A DNA stretch of 64,000 nt from Peptococcaceae bacterium (lineage in GTDB: Bacteria; Bacillota; Dehalobacteriia; UBA4068; UBA4997), in contig JAAWKH010000002.1 in the NCBI GenBank assembly GCA_022797295.1, forward strand, positions 62,001-126,000. The letters are read 5' to 3'. Under the pieces are notes generated by a model. The model saw only the letters and a program-made list of their open reading frames with translations. It was not told the DNA's origin and did not search any database. The position numbers and the translations under genes are program-made. Within the stretch, counting starts at the first letter, position 1. Every line of letters begins with the position of its first letter. This document shows positions 4,954-56,079 of this stretch, one piece after another.

Positions 4954-6012
4954 TTAGCCAAGGCGGCGTTGGATATACTCCCGGTTGCTGGCGTAATCCA
5001 GTGCAGTTTGCTTGCTAATTTTGCCGGCCTGGTAAAGATTGTAAATAGATTGATCCATACTAATCATACCATCACGGCTGCCGGTGGTGATAGCGTTATC
5101 AATTTGGTGGCTTTTATTTTCCCGAATTAGGGTGCGGATGTTATTATTCATATGCATTATTTCATAAGCAGGCACCAGTGTGCCGTCCAATGCCGGTAGT
5201 AGCTGCTGGGAAACAACAGTGCTGAGCACCATACTCAACTGCACGCGAATTTGTTCCTGTTGCCCTTCCGGGAAAGAATCCACAATGCGGTCCACCGTGT
5301 TGACAGCGCCGCTGGTGTGTAGGGTGGCAATCAGCAGGTGGCCTGTTTCCGCCGCCGTCATAGCAGTGCGGATTGTTTCGTGGTCGCGCATTTCACCCAA
5401 CAGAATAACATCTGGCGCCTGTCGCAGGCAGGCTCTAAGAGCAGCCAGATAATCGTTTGTGTCGATGGCAATTTCCCGTTGACTGATAATGCTGAGCTGA
5501 TTGCGGTGCAAATACTCAATAGGATCCTCTAGGGTGACGATATGGCAGGCCCGTGTTTTATTGATTTGGTCAATTATGCAGGCCTGCGTGGTTGATTTGC
5601 CACTACCAGCCGTGCCGGTTACTAATATCATACCGCTAGTTTGGTTGGCTAAATTGATAACCTGCTCTGGAATATTCAATTCTTGCCAGTTGGGGATGTT
5701 GAAAGCCACCACGCGCACCACAGCGGCCAGTGAACCTCTCTGTCGATAGGTGTTGACGCGGAAGCGGGCCAGTCCTGGCACCGCAAAGGAAAAATCATCA
5801 TCGCCTTGTTCCATTAGCTTGTCAGTGGAACGTCCTGCTTGTATGTAAAGCTGTTTCACCAGTTCCTCAGTGTGAGGGGAAAACAGGCGTTCATCATTAA
5901 CGTGCTGCACAACTTTTTCCAGCTTTTCACAAACCGGGCTGCCTGCGATAAAAAATAAATCAGAAGCGCGGTCATTAACAGCACGCTGTAAGTAATAGGT
6001 TAAATCCTCCAT
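4954..6012 (-). CDS. pilT: Type IV pilus retraction ATPase PilT
   Basis: The hexameric cytoplasmic ATPase of the secretion/pilus superfamily powers pilus disassembly. Seen in sequence: Walker A Gly133-Thr-Ala-Gly-Ser-Gly-Lys139-Ser, an Asp box near 162-164, Walker B Ile-Leu-Leu-Gly-Glu-Met-Arg-Asp at 203-210, a His box near 227-234, and a C-terminal Ile-Arg-x-Leu-Ile-Arg-Glu motif close to the AIRNLIRE element typical of PilT. The 352-residue length is that of PilT rather than the longer PilB. The start has AGGAGG just upstream. It is followed by sortase and preceded by pilin-like genes; no pilB assembly ATPase is in the window. Confidence 0.9.
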   Translation of the reverse strand: MEDLTYYLQRAVNDRASDLFFIAGSPVCEKLEKVVQHVNDERLFSPHTEELVKQLYIQAGRSTDKLMEQGDDDFSFAVPGLARFRVNTYRQRGSLAAVVRVVAFNIPNWQELNIPEQVINLANQTSGMILVTGTAGSGKSTTQACIIDQINKTRACHIVTLEDPIEYLHRNQLSIISQREIAIDTNDYLAALRACLRQAPDVILLGEMRDHETIRTAMTAAETGHLLIATLHTSGAVNTVDRIVDSFPEGQQEQIRVQLSMVLSTVVSQQLLPALDGTLVPAYEIMHMNNNIRTLIRENKSHQIDNAITTGSRDGMISMDQSIYNLYQAGKISKQTALDYASNREYIQRRLG

Positions 6013-6024
6013 TTTTAAACCTCC

Positions 6025-6513
6025 TTAAAATGTGGTGCCGTCCCAAAGCTCCAAAGTGTTTTCCGCTTGCCAAGTGCCGCTAGGTACGGCTTGCCAGCGC
6101 AAAATAGAGTAGGAGCCGGTTTGTGGGTTCAGTTGCACCTGCACCTGCAAATTTTGGGTTTCTGAAATTTGGCATGTATAACTACAAAGCATATTTACAC
6201 TTGTAGAATTATCTTCAGTGTTTGCAGCTTCCTCATTCGGCGCGGCAGTTTCAATCGTTACGTCGGCTGGCAGCTCGCCTTGGCGTAGTTTGGCTAAAAT
6301 CATCTGAGCCTCCCAATCAGCTGCGTAGAAATCGCTGACAGATTGGGCGGTGGCGTCGGCCAGGCGGCAATCAGCCTGCACTGTGGAAAGGCTGAGCAAA
6401 GCAAAAACCGTCAGGCAGAGCACGGCAAAAATTACCAGCAGGGAAACGCCTCCCAAAGCTGGCGGCCGGAAATTGGTTTTGTTATTTGCGTTAGTATAAT
6501 TACCCTCAGGCAT
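6025..6513 (-). CDS. Pilin-like / PilX-type membrane protein
   Basis: The 162-residue product has one hydrophobic helix (about 20-44) after a polar N-terminus. A soluble domain follows, with two Cys residues and a Trp-Glu-Ala-Gln helix, as in minor pilins. Position 5 after the helix start lacks a clear prepilin Glu, so processing by a prepilin peptidase is uncertain. It overlaps the upstream gene by 8 bp and has a GGAGGTG ribosome site. The role (minor pilin or initiator-complex subunit) is inferred from context. Confidence 0.6.
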   Translation of the reverse strand: MPEGNYTNANNKTNFRPPALGGVSLLVIFAVLCLTVFALLSLSTVQADCRLADATAQSVSDFYAADWEAQMILAKLRQGELPADVTIETAAPNEEAANTEDNSTSVNMLCSYTCQISETQNLQVQVQLNPQTGSYSILRWQAVPSGTWQAENTLELWDGTTF

Positions 6514-51569: not shown

Positions 51570-52193
51570 ATGGCTACACAAGAGGAACTTAAAAAAGCGC
51601 TTTCTCTTATTTCCTTGGAATGGGGGAGGCAAAATAATCGTTTTGATAAAAGAAGCAATTTTATTTATCGTGTGGAAACAGTGGACGAATGTTTGCAGAA
51701 AGCGCGGGAAATGGCAATAGATGAAAATTATGTTTTGCATAGATGGTATAATTATCAAACCTCGATTTACTGTGAAGGCTTGTTTGTTAAATACGGTGCG
51801 CAAAAGGAAAAACAGCTTTATAATCACGATATTGATATTTACATTAATGAGATACCTTACGATGTTAAATTAACGGTGTATCCTGCCAAATTGAAAAGAA
51901 GCGGTGAAATTTTAAATTTACATAATCGAGATGATAAAAATACGCTCATCAGATGGATGTATGCAAATCAATCCCAGGAGGGGCGTAAGCACTTGAAAAA
52001 TCGAATGTTTATTGTGTGTAATGGGGAAAATACCTACCAAAATTTGGCCTTGAAAAGCGATTTTGATATAATTGAAACAAGAATTAGTGGTTATTTCCAC
52101 TTTTTAGAGAATAATGAGCCGAATAAGCTGGTTATCCAAGATGCAGGACAAGAATATGAGGTATATTCAGATATAATCAGTATAGAAAAATAA
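51570..52193 (+). CDS. Hypothetical protein with possible PD-(D/E)XK nuclease core
   Basis: The 207-residue soluble protein is AT-rich compared with neighbouring core genes. A central stretch (about residues 90-107) reads Asp-Ile-Asp-Ile-Tyr-Ile-Asn-Glu-Ile-Pro-Tyr-Asp-Val-Lys-Leu-Thr. An acidic residue in one strand, then Asp-x-Lys in the next, is the layout of the PD-(D/E)XK nuclease core, but this is a pattern guess. AGGAGG precedes the ATG at 51570. No methylase or defence partner is adjacent. The family was not recognised. Confidence 0.6.
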   Translation: MATQEELKKALSLISLEWGRQNNRFDKRSNFIYRVETVDECLQKAREMAIDENYVLHRWYNYQTSIYCEGLFVKYGAQKEKQLYNHDIDIYINEIPYDVKLTVYPAKLKRSGEILNLHNRDDKNTLIRWMYANQSQEGRKHLKNRMFIVCNGENTYQNLALKSDFDIIETRISGYFHFLENNEPNKLVIQDAGQEYEVYSDIISIEK

Positions 52194-52207
52194 ATGTAAA
52201 TTGTGCT

Positions 52208-52245
52208 AAAAAACCTTAGAAATTCTGACAATTCTAAGGTTTTTT
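52208..52245 (+). terminator. Rho-independent terminator
   Basis: Arms AAAAAACCTTAGAA and TTCTAAGGTTTTTT (14 bp) end in a T run. It closes the 51570 transcript and may also serve the convergent XRE gene. Confidence 0.85.
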
Positions 52246-52284
52246 GTTATTTATAAAATGGTGCAAAGCTTTATAGTAATGTTC

Positions 52285-52614
52285 CTATTTTTCTGTCAAA
52301 TCTTTAATTAAAAGTGAAATATGCTCAAATTGTTTTGGTGAAAGTTTTTCAAGTTCTGCAAGTAAGTGTTTGTTTTTTTGTGTTTTTTTATCTGCTGTAT
52401 TAAAAAAATCCTGTGGAGTTATATCAAAATACTCGCAAATATATAGAAAACCGGTTAATGAAGGCAAGGTTCTGCGGTTTTCAATTTTATTTATATAACT
52501 CGCACTCTGCCCTAAAGAAAGACTCATATCCCTGGAGGATACGCCTTTTTGCAAGCGCAATTCTGTTATTCTTTCCCTGATGAAGTTGGGATAATCCAAA
52601 TAGTCATAAGCCAT
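52285..52614 (-). CDS. XRE family transcriptional regulator
   Basis: The 109-residue protein has a helix-turn-helix of the Cro/C1 type (about 9-65: Ile-Arg-Glu-Arg-Ile-Thr-Glu-Leu-Arg, Ser-Gln/Ala-Ser-Tyr-Ile-Asn-Lys-Ile-Glu-Asn, Pro-Ser-Leu). A short Lys/Asp-rich C-terminal helix follows. The start is probably ATG 52614; an ATG at 52626 overlaps the AGAAAGGA site. It is divergent from the zinc-ribbon gene, with a 17-bp inverted repeat between them. Confidence 0.8.
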   Translation of the reverse strand: MAYDYLDYPNFIRERITELRLQKGVSSRDMSLSLGQSASYINKIENRRTLPSLTGFLYICEYFDITPQDFFNTADKKTQKNKHLLAELEKLSPKQFEHISLLIKDLTEK

Positions 52615-52691
52615 TTTACTAAACATCCTTTCTAAAATATATTGTAAGGCTATTTGAATCATTTTATGAAGAAAATAAAGATATGTTTGTG

Positions 52692-52720
52692 TTGACTTAG
52701 AGGATTAAAGGATATATAAT
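52692..52720 (+). promoter_or_regulatory. Promoter of zinc-ribbon membrane protein gene
   Basis: TTGACT (52692-52697), 17 bp, TATAAT (52715-52720). The transcript would begin inside the adjoining inverted repeat. Confidence 0.65.
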
Positions 52721-52761
52721 AATATCATAAATAGCGATTTAAATTCGCTATTTATGATATT
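52721..52761. promoter_or_regulatory. Perfect 17-bp inverted repeat at the start site
   Basis: AATATCATAAATAGCGA (52721-52737) and its exact complement (52745-52761) flank a 7-bp centre. It directly follows the -10 box, so a bound protein would block transcription. The divergent XRE regulator is the natural candidate. As RNA it could also form a 5' hairpin. Confidence 0.65.
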
Positions 52762-52810
52762 AATTTGGGGAATGTAAGGATAGAAAACACTTGAAAAGGA
52801 GCGATTGGCA

Positions 52811-53107
52811 TTGAAATTGTGCAGTAATTGCAATAAATCTGTTAGAGAAGAGGCTATGATTTGCTCTTATTGTAAAAAAAATTTATTAACTGATAATAAC
52901 AATAATAATGATATATCGGATATGCGCTTAAACATTCTTGTTTTATTGCTTCCTGCTATTGGTTTAATATTATATTTGATATTTCGTGATGACCAACCTG
53001 AAAAAGCTGCTGAAGTTGGCTGTTTTGCATTGATTGGTTTTATTATAGAAGTTGTTATTGGTTTATTTGTATTATTGTTTTCAAATGATTCTCTTGTTTT
53101 TAATTAA
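52811..53107 (+). CDS. Small zinc-ribbon membrane protein
   Basis: The 98-residue protein begins with Cys-Ser-Asn-Cys and Cys-Ser-Tyr-Cys (a zinc ribbon, residues 4-24). An Asn/Asp-rich linker is followed by two TM helices (about 42-60 and 71-92). Zinc-ribbon plus TM proteins of this kind are common and uncharacterised. The start is TTG 52811, 9 nt after AAGGAG; a TTG at 52805 is too close. Confidence 0.65.
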   Translation: MKLCSNCNKSVREEAMICSYCKKNLLTDNNNNNDISDMRLNILVLLLPAIGLILYLIFRDDQPEKAAEVGCFALIGFIIEVVIGLFVLLFSNDSLVFN

Positions 53108-53143
53108 CAGTTGCAATAATTTAGTTAATAGTTTTTTTGGAAT

Positions 53144-53185
53144 AAATAAATATCCCCCGTTTAAGAATATGGGGGATATTTATTT
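53144..53185. terminator. Bidirectional terminator
   Basis: Arms AAATAAATATCCCCC and GGGGGATATTTATTT (15 bp, perfect) around a 12-nt loop. It lies between the zinc-ribbon gene and the convergent kinase gene. Confidence 0.85.
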
Positions 53186-53279
53186 AGGAACAATTAGCAA
53201 AGCCGTTCTATCTTTTATAAGAATCTAAAAAAGTTAAAAACTTATGAAGGTTTTTTATTAAAAAGCATCTTTGTAAATA

Positions 53280-54116
53280 TCAAAATATGGTATTAGCAAT
53301 TTCTGTATACAAATCTTCTGACGTAAAAAGTTTGTTGCATTGTAATGGTAGTTCAATACAAATACAACAGCCAAGGCCAGGTTTACCATCTACAGAGATA
53401 AAACCGCCGTGCATTTTTATAATCGCTTGACAAATGCAAGTGCCAAGACCGTTGCCGGAGGGTTTTGTTGTGTAAAATGGTGAAAAGAATTTGGCTTGTT
53501 GTTCTGGTTTCAGGCCAATGCCATTGTCCTCAATCAGTAGACGCAGCAGCTTTGGGTTCTCCAGGTTTTGGTTTTCAGCTAACATAGTGCTAATCGTAAT
53601 TTGTCCATCCGGCTGTTTTTTAGCTAAAATTGCTTCTCTGCTGTTATCCAAACAATTTGTTAATACTTGTCGAATACGTTGCTTGTCCATCAGGATTGGC
53701 GGCAGATTTTCAGCTAAACTGCTTTTTAGTTCAATTTGATTAGCAGAAAGTTTGGGTTGTTGATTTTTAAGAACTTCCAAGATCAACTGATTTAAGGAAT
53801 AGAGGCTCAGGATTGAGCAGCCCTGATTTTTTTGTAAGTATTGATTTAACGAAATAATTGTTTCGTTTACCTCTTGGCAAATAGGTTTTATAGAGTCGAT
53901 TTTAATATGATTGAGCTTACATTTTAAGGTAAGGGTTTGTAACATACCACTAATGCATTGTAAATTGTTTTTAACCGAATGGATAATATCCACATTTTGT
54001 GCAGTTTGCTGAACAAATTGTAGATATGTTGTTTGAACGGAATCTATCTTTGAGGTTCTTTTGTTTTCGTTTGTTGTTGTTATGGTTGAAATTTGTTCAG
54101 ATTTGCTTTTGAGCAT
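53280..54116 (-). CDS. Soluble orphan histidine kinase (copy 1)
   Basis: The 278-residue protein lacks any TM helix or sensor domain. Its phosphoacceptor region has His46 in Ile-Ile-His-Ser-Val-Lys-Asn-Asn-Leu-Gln, close to the HisKA_2 pattern. The ATPase has an N box (Asn-Cys-Leu-Asp-Asn-Ser-Arg-Glu-Ala-Ile), G1 (Glu-Asp-Asn-Gly-Ile-Gly-Leu) and G2 (Lys-Pro-Ser-Gly-Asn-Gly-Leu-Gly-Thr). No response regulator is adjacent. A paralogue lies at 54735-55559. ACAGGAGGAG precedes the ATG. Confidence 0.82.
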   Translation of the reverse strand: MLKSKSEQISTITTTNENKRTSKIDSVQTTYLQFVQQTAQNVDIIHSVKNNLQCISGMLQTLTLKCKLNHIKIDSIKPICQEVNETIISLNQYLQKNQGCSILSLYSLNQLILEVLKNQQPKLSANQIELKSSLAENLPPILMDKQRIRQVLTNCLDNSREAILAKKQPDGQITISTMLAENQNLENPKLLRLLIEDNGIGLKPEQQAKFFSPFYTTKPSGNGLGTCICQAIIKMHGGFISVDGKPGLGCCICIELPLQCNKLFTSEDLYTEIANTIF

Positions 54117-54229
54117 AATAGTCTCCTCCTGTTTTCACTTGTGAAAAATATTGGAGGGGCTCGATAAAAATACATATATAGATTATTTGGCACTTAACAC
54201 TCAATAAAACATGGAGAGTTGATAATGAT

Positions 54230-54484
54230 TTATTTCTTTTTGTTTAGTGTTTTCAGAACGGTTTGGTCAAGCTTGGGAGTGCTATTTGCTTCCCGGACTA
54301 TTAAGTCGCTTAATTGGCAATTAAGAGCTTCACAAATCAGGTCAAGCTCTTCTAAACTTACACGTTCTGTCATTTCGTGATACAGATCGTTAATTGTATT
54401 TGGACGTATGCCCGTAACACGAGATAAATCTCTTTGTGTCCACCTGCGCGCTCCAAGTAAGGTGGATAATAAAATTCTTATCAT
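54230..54484 (-). CDS. Small XRE family regulator
   Basis: The 84-residue protein is almost wholly a Cro/C1-type helix-turn-helix: Trp-Thr-Gln-Arg-Asp-Leu-Ser-Arg-Val-Thr-Gly-Ile-Arg-Pro-Asn-Thr-Ile-Asn-Asp, then Leu-Asp-Leu-Ile-Cys-Glu-Ala-Leu. It lies between the two kinase genes on the same strand. Upstream are four TTGATA/TATCAA-type motifs that could be its own operators. Confidence 0.8.
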   Translation of the reverse strand: MIRILLSTLLGARRWTQRDLSRVTGIRPNTINDLYHEMTERVSLEELDLICEALNCQLSDLIVREANSTPKLDQTVLKTLNKKK

Positions 54485-54500
54485 AACCCAAACTCCTTTG

Positions 54501-54567
54501 GATAAATTTTATCAAATTTTACCATTTTTTTCCTGCTTTTGATAATTAATATCAATATTTGATAAAA
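54501..54567 (-). promoter_or_regulatory. Cluster of TTGATA/TATCAA motifs, candidate XRE operators
   Basis: Within 67 bp upstream of the small XRE gene: the palindrome GATAAATTTTATC (54501-54513), the inverted pair TTGATA-N5-TATCAA (54539-54555), and a further TTTGATAAAA (54558-54567). The density suggests autoregulation, although the AT-rich setting raises the chance of coincidence. Confidence 0.4.
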
Positions 54568-54671
54568 ATGTATTAAAGGCTCACAAAGGGAGATTTGTAT
54601 TTTATTTTGCACTAAATCATCAATGAAAACAAAGTGACATTAAAGATAGAGCGGCTTTGTTAAATGTTTCT

Positions 54672-54714
54672 AAAAAAGGCGGCAACAACTCTTGGTGAGC
54701 TGCTGCCGCCTTTC
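54672..54714 (-). terminator. Terminator after kinase copy 2
   Basis: Read on the minus strand, a GC-rich stem of 10 bp (AAAGGCGGCA / TGCCGCCTTT) is followed by a T run. It ends the copy-2 kinase transcript about 20 bp after its stop. Confidence 0.8.
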
Positions 54715-54734
54715 TGTATCCTGCCATTGTTTAA

Positions 54735-55559
54735 TTAGAATATTGTATCTGCTACTTCATTATAATAATCATTTGAAGTAAAGTGATTGCGGTTTATTAA
54801 AGGAAGGTCAATACGAACACAGCAGCCAATATTAGGCTGACCGTTTACTGATACATAACCACCGTGCATTTTCACAATAGTCTGACAAAAGCAAGTGCCC
54901 AGGCCACTGCCAGATGGTTTGGTGGTGTAATGCGGGAGGAAAAAGTTAGCCTGCTGTTCTGCACCAAGACCGATACCATTATCCTCAATTAAAAGATGAA
55001 CTATTTTTTGTTTTTTATCAAACATCGTGCTGATAAGAATTTGGCCATCAGCTTTATTTTTAGCTAAAATCGCATCGCGACTGTTATCTAAACAGTTGAT
55101 TAAAACTTTTCGCATATATTGCTTATTCAACATAAGCTTAGGAATATTCTCAGCCAGTTTGCTTTTTAATTTGATTTGGTGGAAAGCAAATTGTGTTTGC
55201 TGACTTTGGATCACTTCTGTTACCAGTTGGTTTAGTGAACACAAACATGGAATAGAGGTTTCTTGACTATTTTGTAAATAATTGTTTAGTGATTTTATTG
55301 TTCTGTTTATTTCCTGACAAACTGATTGCATAAATTCAGTTTCAATGTGTTTGAGCTCACATTGTCTGGTTAGAACTTGCAGCATACCGCTGATGTTTTG
55401 TAGACAGTTTTTTACTGTATGAAATTGATCGGTTGTATGTGCAGCTTGCCGTTTATGGCACAAAAGCATTTCCTGAACAAGTTCTTCATATTCCAGCTGT
55501 GTAATTTTGTTTGCTGTGGTTGCTGGCTTAGAATTTTGTTCAGATCTTGTTTCCAACAT
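54735..55559 (-). CDS. Soluble orphan histidine kinase (copy 2)
   Basis: This 274-residue paralogue of the 53280-54116 kinase shares roughly half its residues by eye across the full length. His47 sits in Gln-Phe-His-Thr-Val-Lys-Asn-Cys-Leu-Gln. The ATPase has Asn-Cys-Leu-Asp-Asn-Ser-Arg-Asp-Ala-Ile, Glu-Asp-Asn-Gly-Ile-Gly-Leu and Lys-Pro-Ser-Gly-Ser-Gly-Leu-Gly-Thr. There is no TM helix, sensor domain or adjacent response regulator. Clostridial orphan kinases often act on Spo0A, but nothing here shows the target. The second of two ATGs is chosen for spacing from GGAGG. Confidence 0.82.
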   Translation of the reverse strand: MLETRSEQNSKPATTANKITQLEYEELVQEMLLCHKRQAAHTTDQFHTVKNCLQNISGMLQVLTRQCELKHIETEFMQSVCQEINRTIKSLNNYLQNSQETSIPCLCSLNQLVTEVIQSQQTQFAFHQIKLKSKLAENIPKLMLNKQYMRKVLINCLDNSRDAILAKNKADGQILISTMFDKKQKIVHLLIEDNGIGLGAEQQANFFLPHYTTKPSGSGLGTCFCQTIVKMHGGYVSVNGQPNIGCCVRIDLPLINRNHFTSNDYYNEVADTIF

Positions 55560-56079
55560 CATTTTCCTCCTTTTGTTTTATAACCAAAAGAGGGATGGTG
55601 GTGAGCGATAGATGTATGATTTTTGCAAGATAGTTTAATTTAAGATTCTTTCAATATTATTTTTCTGCTTATAAAATACGCCAAGGAAAGATAAAAATCC
55701 TTGTTTTAATTTTAAAATCATGTAAATATTTATCTATAATATTTTTTTAAGTAACAATTTTTTTAAGCCAAATTTTTTTAGATGTTTGATAAATTTTGTG
55801 TAAATTCTTTAAGATGTTGTTTTTTCTTTGTTCATTGCGCTCCAATCTTTTTTTGCTTTAATCATAAAAGAAATAGCGTGATTTTTACAGGAATTATAAG
55901 TCCGATTGAAAAAAAGAAAGAATAAATTTGGGGAATAAAAATATCTGATTATCATTATAATCTCTTAACATAACGATGTGGTTGTGCAACTGCCAAATGG
56001 CAGATTGTCCTTGCATTTGCGCTTTGAATGTGCTATGCTTTTAATATAAAAAGATTTAATAATAAGGAGGTAAGGCAAA
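55560..56079. other. AT-rich intergenic region, 520 bp
   Basis: This lies between the divergent copy-2 kinase and larA-like genes. It is strongly AT-rich with many T tracts and no supportable ORF. Near the larA side are a 6-bp-arm palindrome (CTGCCA-AA-TGGCAG, about 55990-56003) and a clear promoter. No convincing RNA gene was seen. Confidence 0.6.
56011..56039 (+). promoter_or_regulatory. Promoter of larA-like gene
   Basis: TTGCAT (56011-56016), 17 bp, TATGCT (56034-56039), 40 bp before the ATG, which follows AAGGAGGTAAGG. Confidence 0.65.

Follow-up and report, generated by a model that had tools for sequence, protein, structure and literature searches.

Two sensorless orphan histidine kinases in a Peptococcaceae genome and their relatives in an XRE-linked coat-gene element: candidate regulators of Spo0A

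The region described here belongs to a 64,000-nucleotide stretch of the genome of a Peptococcaceae bacterium (GenBank assembly GCA_022797295.1, contig JAAWKH010000002.1, positions 62,001 to 126,000), referred to below as the window. Three intact open reading frames (ORFs) on its minus strand encode two paralogous histidine kinases, HKa and HKb (55% identity across 279 columns), and, between them, a small helix-turn-helix (HTH) protein (Table 1). A first-pass annotation of the DNA had recognised this arrangement and ended it at 55559, which is the second ATG of HKb; the full ORF extends to 55562. It had also described both kinases as free of a sensor, a membrane anchor and a linked response regulator, and all of this is borne out. 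The N-terminal sensor domain of sporulation kinases is absent from HKa and HKb, the maxima of their 19-residue hydropathy profiles (1.27 and 0.81) are such that no membrane helix is expected, and contig C35, which carries the window, has none of the genome's 25 response-regulator hits; neither kinase has a linked two-component partner.

Both proteins hold a well-preserved ATP-binding domain. The HATPase_c profile scores 77 bits for HKa and 58.7 bits for HKb (Pfam cut-off, 26.4), and the N, G1, F and G2 boxes are in place (N-box, DNGIGL, F-box and GxGLG), as is the phosphoacceptor His. The statement that His and ATP motifs are kept therefore stands with one amendment: the acid that follows the His in HisKA-type kinases (position H+1) is replaced by Ser or Thr, the Asn at H+4 being present. 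The His domain matches HisKA_2 weakly (16.5 bits in HKa and 18.6 bits in HKb, below the cut-off of 22.3), HisKA scores are likewise under the cut-off for both, and no window protein matches the SPOB_a profile. A structure model built from the two sequences reached a mean pLDDT of 48.3, too poor to judge the dimer interface. Pairwise dN/dS is 0.15–0.3, so HKa and HKb look maintained by selection and not like chance ORFs, and ribosome-binding sites, identified by eye, precede them.

Table 1. Features of the window in and around the two kinase genes, in order of position.
Feature	Position	Strand	Remarks
AT-rich island holding the whole set	52178..55979	.	GC 0.320 versus 0.497 in the rest of the window
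HKa	53280..54116	-	Soluble histidine kinase without sensor (278 aa; HATPase_c; H-box HSVKNNLQ); no transmembrane segment expected
HTH_26 (Cro/CI-type) regulator	54230..54484	-	84 aa; 69 bits; not homologous to the kinase-linked or fused XRE of other genomes
TTTGATAA/TTATCAAA repeats upstream of the HTH gene	54507..54567	-	Candidate autoregulatory sites; promoter-like match overlaps
GC-rich hairpin followed by T6	54675..54713	-	Likely HKb terminator; outside the 3 terminator-like sites listed by a separate scan
HKb	54735..55562	-	Soluble histidine kinase without sensor (275 aa; HATPase_c; H-box HTVKNCLQ); 64% identical to its sister, the kinase on the G006 element
Decayed XRE-gene remnant	55666..55835	-	Counterpart of the XRE gene ahead of the G006 kinase; reading frame disrupted, start codon still present
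Conserved promoter region of the XRE-kinase unit	55837..55907	-	TATAAT within palindrome
Candidate operator over the -10 box	55887..55903	-	Degenerate copy of AACAGGAA-N6-TTCCTGTT; exact match to GGANNTATANTTCCTGT

The relatives of HKa and HKb form a small family. The genomes compared are designated G000 (that of the window) to G009, and most of them are drafts (completeness 61–100%). With HKb as query against 61 genomes, relatives at E <= 1e-30 came from seven, all of them in the genus of the window, and a search of 36 genomes with the relative encoded on contig C40 of G000 added a frame-broken copy in G005. The C40 kinase belongs to a long version of the protein, with an extra N-terminal domain of ~150 residues, whose gene lies directly after fthC in six of the nine genus genomes (G000, G002, G004, G005 in its broken form, G006 at two contig ends, and G008) and at other places in G001 and G007. 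Where seen, tsaD precedes it (fthC and tsaD were named by eye), and no family member was seen in G003 (81% complete). The N-terminal domain has no Pfam hit, PAS included; it is called PAS-like here on the strength of a weak profile match to one sensor protein in the PDB, 3ewk (E 0.0042), which we take to be a PAS protein. The core of the window kinases is 35–44% identical to the C40 kinase. Judged by sequence, HKa and HKb are stripped relatives of this genus-restricted orphan kinase with a PAS-like N-terminus. Of the 11 aligned family members, 10 share a C-terminal tail in which a Tyr is conserved (hYxE/D-h type); it is absent only from the G006 element copy described below.

In a tree of 11 proteins, built on 321 of 470 columns and with all eight inner branches starred, the sensorless forms make up a single clade, in which a fusion protein of G007 branches first, followed by HKa and then by HKb together with a kinase of G006, the nearest relative of the window's genome among those compared by SpoIVA (97%). 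HKb and the G006 kinase are sisters, with HKa outside (supports 99/98 and 99/96), so that the split between HKa and HKb predates that between HKb and the G006 kinase. The suggestion of a duplicated local module is contradicted by this topology and also by the HTH gene, which is unrelated to the XRE gene linked to the kinase elsewhere; a recent tandem duplication is ruled out by the tree and by saturated dS. Between HKb and the G006 kinase dS is 0.88–1.36, compared with 0.48–0.79 for der, gpsA, spoIVA and larA and 0.53–0.60 for the C40-type kinase. The AT-rich neighbouring ORF 51567 shows a dS as high as that of HKb (0.87–1.29), and HKb may therefore have descended vertically. A scan of public genomes with HKa returned four distant, partial relatives (27–33% identity), and 26 of 50,697 annotated phage records matched the kinase, with 24–29% identity in the best 15 of the 26, several of which are bacterial records.

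Two of the relatives are tied to a DNA-binding protein of the XRE type. In G006 an XRE gene is followed, after a gap of 133 bp, by the kinase gene. In G007 a homologous XRE (67% identity to that of G006 over 73 residues) constitutes the N-terminus of the kinase polypeptide itself, in one open frame of 327 aa that runs to the edge of contig C109 (L031:1-983, minus strand). A chain that holds both a DNA-binding repressor and a phosphotransfer core would be an unusual protein, and no report of such a fusion, or of sensorless kinases with Spo0A, was found in the open-licence literature. Searching the 61 genomes for the XRE gave 17 matches in six of them; the surroundings of 14 of the 17 revealed two joined to the kinase and five beside genes labelled by eye as phage lysis-type (two of these at one place). 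Among viral contigs, 41 pattern matches for the XRE were obtained, none of which was confirmed.

The window conserves traces of the same unit ahead of HKb. The promoter region aligns with that of G006 with 80% identity over 89 bp (BLAST, 55822-55907) and a match score of 38, the best of 1000 shuffles being 17. Between it and HKb, the kinase-linked XRE gene persists as a broken-frame remnant that is colinear with the G006 gene and was equalled by none of 1000 dinucleotide shuffles under each of two milder scoring schemes. Harsh gap and mismatch scoring gave a non-significant result (score 27 against 37 for the best of 500 shuffles, and 27 against 35 when the first bases were left out); the milder schemes, suited to AT-rich, indel-rich DNA, were adopted after that first result. 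The promoter match, also obtained independently by BLAST, does not depend on the scheme. There is no copy of the kinase-linked XRE in front of HKa, and the HTH gene that precedes it was rejected as the ancestral partner of the kinase for its lack of homology to the XRE of G006 and G007.

That the two kinase genes are relic DNA, the functionless leftovers of a mobile cassette, is a reading to which we give very little weight. The AT-rich island, the decayed XRE gene and a C-terminal nonsense codon in the G006 kinase would suit it, whereas both frames and all the kinase boxes have stayed intact at 55% identity, with the dN/dS values and ribosome-binding sites given above.

The -10 box of the unit lies in a palindrome that is perfect in G007 and G001 (AACAGGAA-CTATAC-TTCCTGTT) and imperfect in G006 and the window. 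A pattern written from the loci of G000, G006 and G007, GGANNTATANTTCCTGT, occurs exactly at four places (six hits, two of the places being palindromic), in G000, G001, G006 and G007; as it was built from three of these four loci, the new information lies in the G001 hit and in the absence of any other exact hit. Allowing up to one mismatch, eight hits appear in four genomes, compared with three for the backward control. Contig C37 of G001 ends just past this palindrome, so the exact hit stands at a contig end. The XRE protein probably binds the palindrome over its own -10 box and may repress its own gene.

The G006 pair is the cargo of a compact element. On contig C16 (L028:5842-9597, minus strand), the XRE gene, the kinase gene and a gene for a serine recombinase (Resolvase, Recombinase and Zn-ribbon domains) form a 3.3-kb element that splits cotJC, a manganese-catalase-type coat gene located downstream of apparent cotJA and cotJB (assigned by eye). 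The Mn_catalase profile is divided into parts 1-67 and 67-150, with the recombinase between them. The core GAGTTGG, read from the junction sequences, flanks the element in two copies separated by 3.33 kb, and the coat-gene frame is whole across it (...GTEELAHLEM...), in the same order as in the 3' part of the G000 gene (...GTEELAHMEM...). The element thus shows the serine recombinase, core repeat and in-frame interruption of skin-like elements, and it is a candidate for excision during sporulation. The 3' part of the G006 gene ends early beside a second serine recombinase (L028:4213-5766, plus strand, and 5842-6069, minus strand), which possibly marks a further insertion point in cotJC.

The same target recurs in viral sequence. 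Of 115 relatives of the integrase found in IMG/VR, 80 were kept, and 13 of these abut the 3' part of cotJC at the same codon (L209, L212, L214-L216, L220, L223, L229, L234, L241, L254, L273 and L284, some of them near-identical contigs, such as L212/L214 and L220/L273); the integrase family therefore includes members that target the TEEL/AHLEM codon. Also among the 80 loci, L249 contains an XRE-like stretch (28%). In L237, a distant kinase ATP-binding domain (26–29% identity) adjoins the integrase at a contig end (4467-4781, minus strand), perhaps as another attachment gene. The cotJC gene of G000 is interrupted at a different codon, near residue 31, by ~40 kb of DNA that looks phage-like by eye (contig C1, about 138.6-179.3 kb; L204, L195, L194), which has its own, different serine recombinase beside the 3' part of the coat gene and, at its other end, an XRE of the same family, 49% identical to that of G006. 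No report joining cotJC with gene rearrangement was found in the open-licence literature, and none on cotJC was among the prophage-excision matches listed. In the window, alignments to G006 end at both edges of the AT-rich island, the G006 recombinase (P0001) has no match, and no split gene was recognised at the island edges; no skin-like element was thus recognised in the island.

As for the partner of these kinases, the first-pass annotation had proposed that they feed sporulation or another orphan regulator. The sporulation part is plausible: Spo0A_C has one match in each of the 10 genomes searched, and Spo0A is our best single guess at the partner. The Spo0B gene is placed at the obg locus in the excerpted text of PMC6136694, and no Spo0B was found there in the five genomes readable at that position (G000, G001, G004, G008 and G009; in G006 the contig stops at obg, and G002, G003, G005 and G007 were left out). 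An unrelated antisense gene occupies the Spo0B place in G000, and in G004 and G009 L27 lies under a longer antisense ORF, with an L21-obg interval of about 0.55 and 0.43 kb. As far as readable, G000 has none of its three single-domain receivers beside Spo0F marker genes, which were themselves not located. With neither Spo0B nor Spo0F recognised, G000 looks like a direct-phosphorylation genome by the criteria in the available part of PMC6136694. The window kinases themselves are not Spo0B, being away from the rplU/rpmA-obg locus and having intact ATP boxes. The only SPOB_a match over the cut-off in 10 genomes, a 476-aa frame on contig C20 of G000 (28.5 bits), is by its place a paired kinase and not Spo0B.

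The family also stands out in the kinase complement of G000. Of 22 HATPase_c hits, four are GyrB, MutL, SpoIIAB and CheA; the remaining 18 kinases comprise five hybrids, 10 with a receiver no more than about 2 kb away and three orphans, all three belonging to the family of HKa, HKb and the C40 kinase (adjacency was judged from coordinates and names by eye). It is very improbable that HKa and HKb serve a response regulator other than Spo0A, for instance one of the single-domain receivers (on C23, C28 or C19), some other receiver with no kinase next to it, or one that belongs to a paired system. No kinase on the list adjoins the single-domain receivers of C23 and C28, which would leave room for this, but each of the two has a large gene of its own next to it, and that on C19 (10321) lies in a flagellar run (by eye; the neighbourhoods covered were those of C23, C28 and C19 (10321), with C17 (27988) and C19 (1560) left out).

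The specificity residues of the His domain (H+7, 8, 11, 12, 14 and 15, positions worked out from the KinA, EnvZ and Spo0B sequences) read QCGMQT in HKa and QNGMQV in HKb. None of 13 other kinase boxes listed from G000 starts with Q; outside the family, the pattern used for that list demanded E, D or N after the His, so it gives no unbiased count of H+1 acids. The first letter matches that of Spo0B, whose letters are QLGNSL in B. subtilis and QVGLQL in D. acetoxidans (PMC6136694, in part), and the later G and Q are common to many kinases. Taken together, the lack of a recognised Spo0B or Spo0F, the fact that every orphan non-hybrid kinase found belongs to the family and the Q shared with Spo0B make Spo0A the likeliest partner. 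The specificity letters also bear on a quite different role, in which HKa and HKb would be subunit poisons that form heterodimers with the PAS-like C40 kinase by way of the His domain and alter its activity instead of meeting Spo0A. The letters of HKb are identical to those of the C40 kinase, the cores are related as stated above, and PtpA and PtpB of C. difficile have been proposed to be active as hetero-oligomers (PMC11210211, in the part available); we nevertheless consider this role improbable.

The residue after the phosphoacceptor His gives a hint of the sign of action. It is Glu in the long versions of G000, G002, G004 and G008, and Ser or Thr throughout the sensorless clade. According to the excerpt of PMC3510030, the H+1 acid is needed for autophosphorylation and not for phosphatase activity in CrdS and three other HisKA kinases, the Asn/Thr at H+4 shows the reverse pattern, being needed for phosphatase activity in the same four, and a kinase-dead, phosphatase-competent CrdS is dominant in vivo. 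By extension from these results, the loss of the acid indicates impaired autophosphorylation, and its loss together with the kept Asn at H+4 favours a phosphatase or decoy role that would delay sporulation. There is a precedent in PtpA and PtpB, which appear to be mainly phosphatases inhibiting Spo0A, direct binding of Spo0A not being shown in that part of the source (PMC11210211).

The opposite sign is unlikely, though it has more in its favour than the other alternatives. Under it, HKa and HKb would be active orphan sporulation kinases that autophosphorylate despite the Ser or Thr at H+1 and phosphorylate Spo0A directly, their input being their expression level. Their complete ATP-binding domain is under purifying selection, and direct phosphorylation is to be expected since neither Spo0B nor Spo0F was recognised. 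The H-box, moreover, resembles that of HisKA_2, a family whose members work without the acid. Orphan status is described as the signature of verified sporulation kinases in the consulted text of PMC6136694. Against it stands the abolition of autophosphorylation in the four HisKA kinases on substitution of the acid (PMC3510030, in part).

The explanation we prefer, and put forward tentatively, is that HKa and HKb are cassette-derived phosphatases or decoys for phosphorylated Spo0A (Spo0A~P), set by their expression. Within the HKa/HKb branch the kinase core acquired an XRE regulator as its neighbour, to which it is fused in G007. In G006 the XRE-kinase pair is carried by the serine-recombinase element in cotJC, and the window copies would be AT-rich relatives or relics of such cassettes, now outside recognised elements, the XRE having decayed ahead of HKb and HKa standing behind an unrelated HTH gene. 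Having no sensor, the kinases would take their expression level as input; they would dock on Spo0A and either drain Spo0A~P or act as decoys, thereby delaying sporulation. As far as sequence goes, the kinship of the kinases, the order of changes, the XRE linkage and fusion, the structure of the element and the conserved promoter are the firm part of this account, to which Spo0A as the partner, the phosphatase or decoy sign and repression by the XRE would be added by inference.

A bolder form of it, which we think rather unlikely, is that integrative elements in cotJC acquired a stripped form of the host's orphan sporulation kinase and placed it under a phage-type XRE repressor; by keeping Spo0A~P low with it, they would set the time of both sporulation and their own excision, with HKa and HKb as settled copies of the cassette. 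In that form the G007 fusion would be, with the same measure of doubt, a single DNA-binding histidine kinase that represses its own gene. The data suggest, in any case, that mobile elements may be able to meddle with the spore decision. In this regard, phage-encoded quorum-sensing systems have been predicted to modulate host behaviour (PMC10075063, in part), and the gin element illustrates that not every gene-intervening element is a prophage (PMC5595907, in part). At title and abstract level, no report of a phage kinase acting on Spo0A was found in the open-licence literature.

Several observations weigh against the cassette-derived phosphatase or decoy. HKa and HKb now sit outside any recognised element, the HTH_26 protein gave no meaningful BLASTP match to the XRE of G006 or G007, in viral contigs neither HKb nor the G007 fusion nor the G006 kinase had a pattern match, and the element kinase of G006 has lost the C-terminal tail of the family. 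Concerning the sign, the sensor-bearing forms of G001 and G007 also lack the acid (HMVKN), so that its absence does not go hand in hand with absence of the sensor, and a copy that keeps it is seen in neither assembly; HisKA_2 kinases are active without it. Concerning the partner, Q at H+7 is the HisKA_2 consensus, and as the window H-boxes drift toward HisKA_2, the likeness to Spo0B may be convergence. The SPOB_a-type frame on C20, which lies beside a receiver, is missing from the HATPase_c list, which is therefore not a full census of an assembly that is 92.8% complete. Finally, the only gene-intervening element found with a reported effect on sporulation timing, yin (in yabG), shifts entry into sporulation earlier, not later, according to the part of PMC10747680 available.

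Among the remaining features of the island, the hairpin and T run downstream of HKb indicate that HKb is probably transcribed separately from the HTH-HKa unit, whose two genes perhaps share a transcript. The repeats upstream of the HTH gene may be a chance occurrence in AT-rich DNA. The island also contains a second XRE-type gene (HTH_19; 52285-52662, minus strand) and a gene whose small product weakly matches a zinc ribbon (52805-53107, plus strand).

Orphan kinases and element-borne regulators are already known kinds of regulators; what lends the present case its interest is the coat-gene element of the sister species and the XRE-kinase fusion. Compared with the orphan sporulation kinases (KinA-E of B. 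subtilis and the clostridial CAC0903, CAC3319 and PtpC), HKa and HKb are alike in being orphans with a His domain and HATPase_c core and candidate partners in the Spo0A pathway, and PtpC is likewise cytosolic (PMC11210211, in part). They differ from them in having no sensor, in the lost H+1 acid, in the link to an XRE cassette and in a first specificity letter that is Q instead of T, N or S (Table 1 of PMC6136694, seen as an excerpt). With Spo0B they share the Q at H+7, the lack of a sensor and, as a proposal in their case, the role of Spo0A donor. The ATP-binding boxes of Spo0B are degenerate and its kinase motifs absent, while those of HKa and HKb are intact, and the latter are not at the obg locus and do not match SPOB_a.

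The G006 element resembles skin, SPbeta-spsM, gin-gerE and yin-yabG in its serine recombinase, short core repeat and spore gene split in frame. It is unlike them in its size of only 3.3 kb, its target, cotJC, and its cargo of an XRE and a histidine kinase, and its excision is presumed; the window copies, unlike skin-type elements, lie outside such an element. If the proposal is true, it would offer a direct test of the coupling between excision from a coat gene and the sporulation decision of the host.

The closest functional parallel is with the Rap proteins, through which control of sporulation by mobile elements, in some cases by Spo0F phosphatases, is known in Bacillus. Rap proteins are tetratricopeptide-repeat (TPR) proteins under peptide control, and RapE is carried by the skin prophage and RapI by ICEBs1. 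RapE and RapI share with the present kinases the condition of mobile-element regulators that delay sporulation, and Rap phosphatases act on Spo0F (PMC7784978), whereas here a histidine-kinase core under an XRE would act probably on Spo0A. Many clostridia lack Spo0F and Spo0B, and a mobile, XRE-linked kinase core derived from a host kinase would, if the proposal holds, be the equivalent of Rap for genomes without a phosphorelay.

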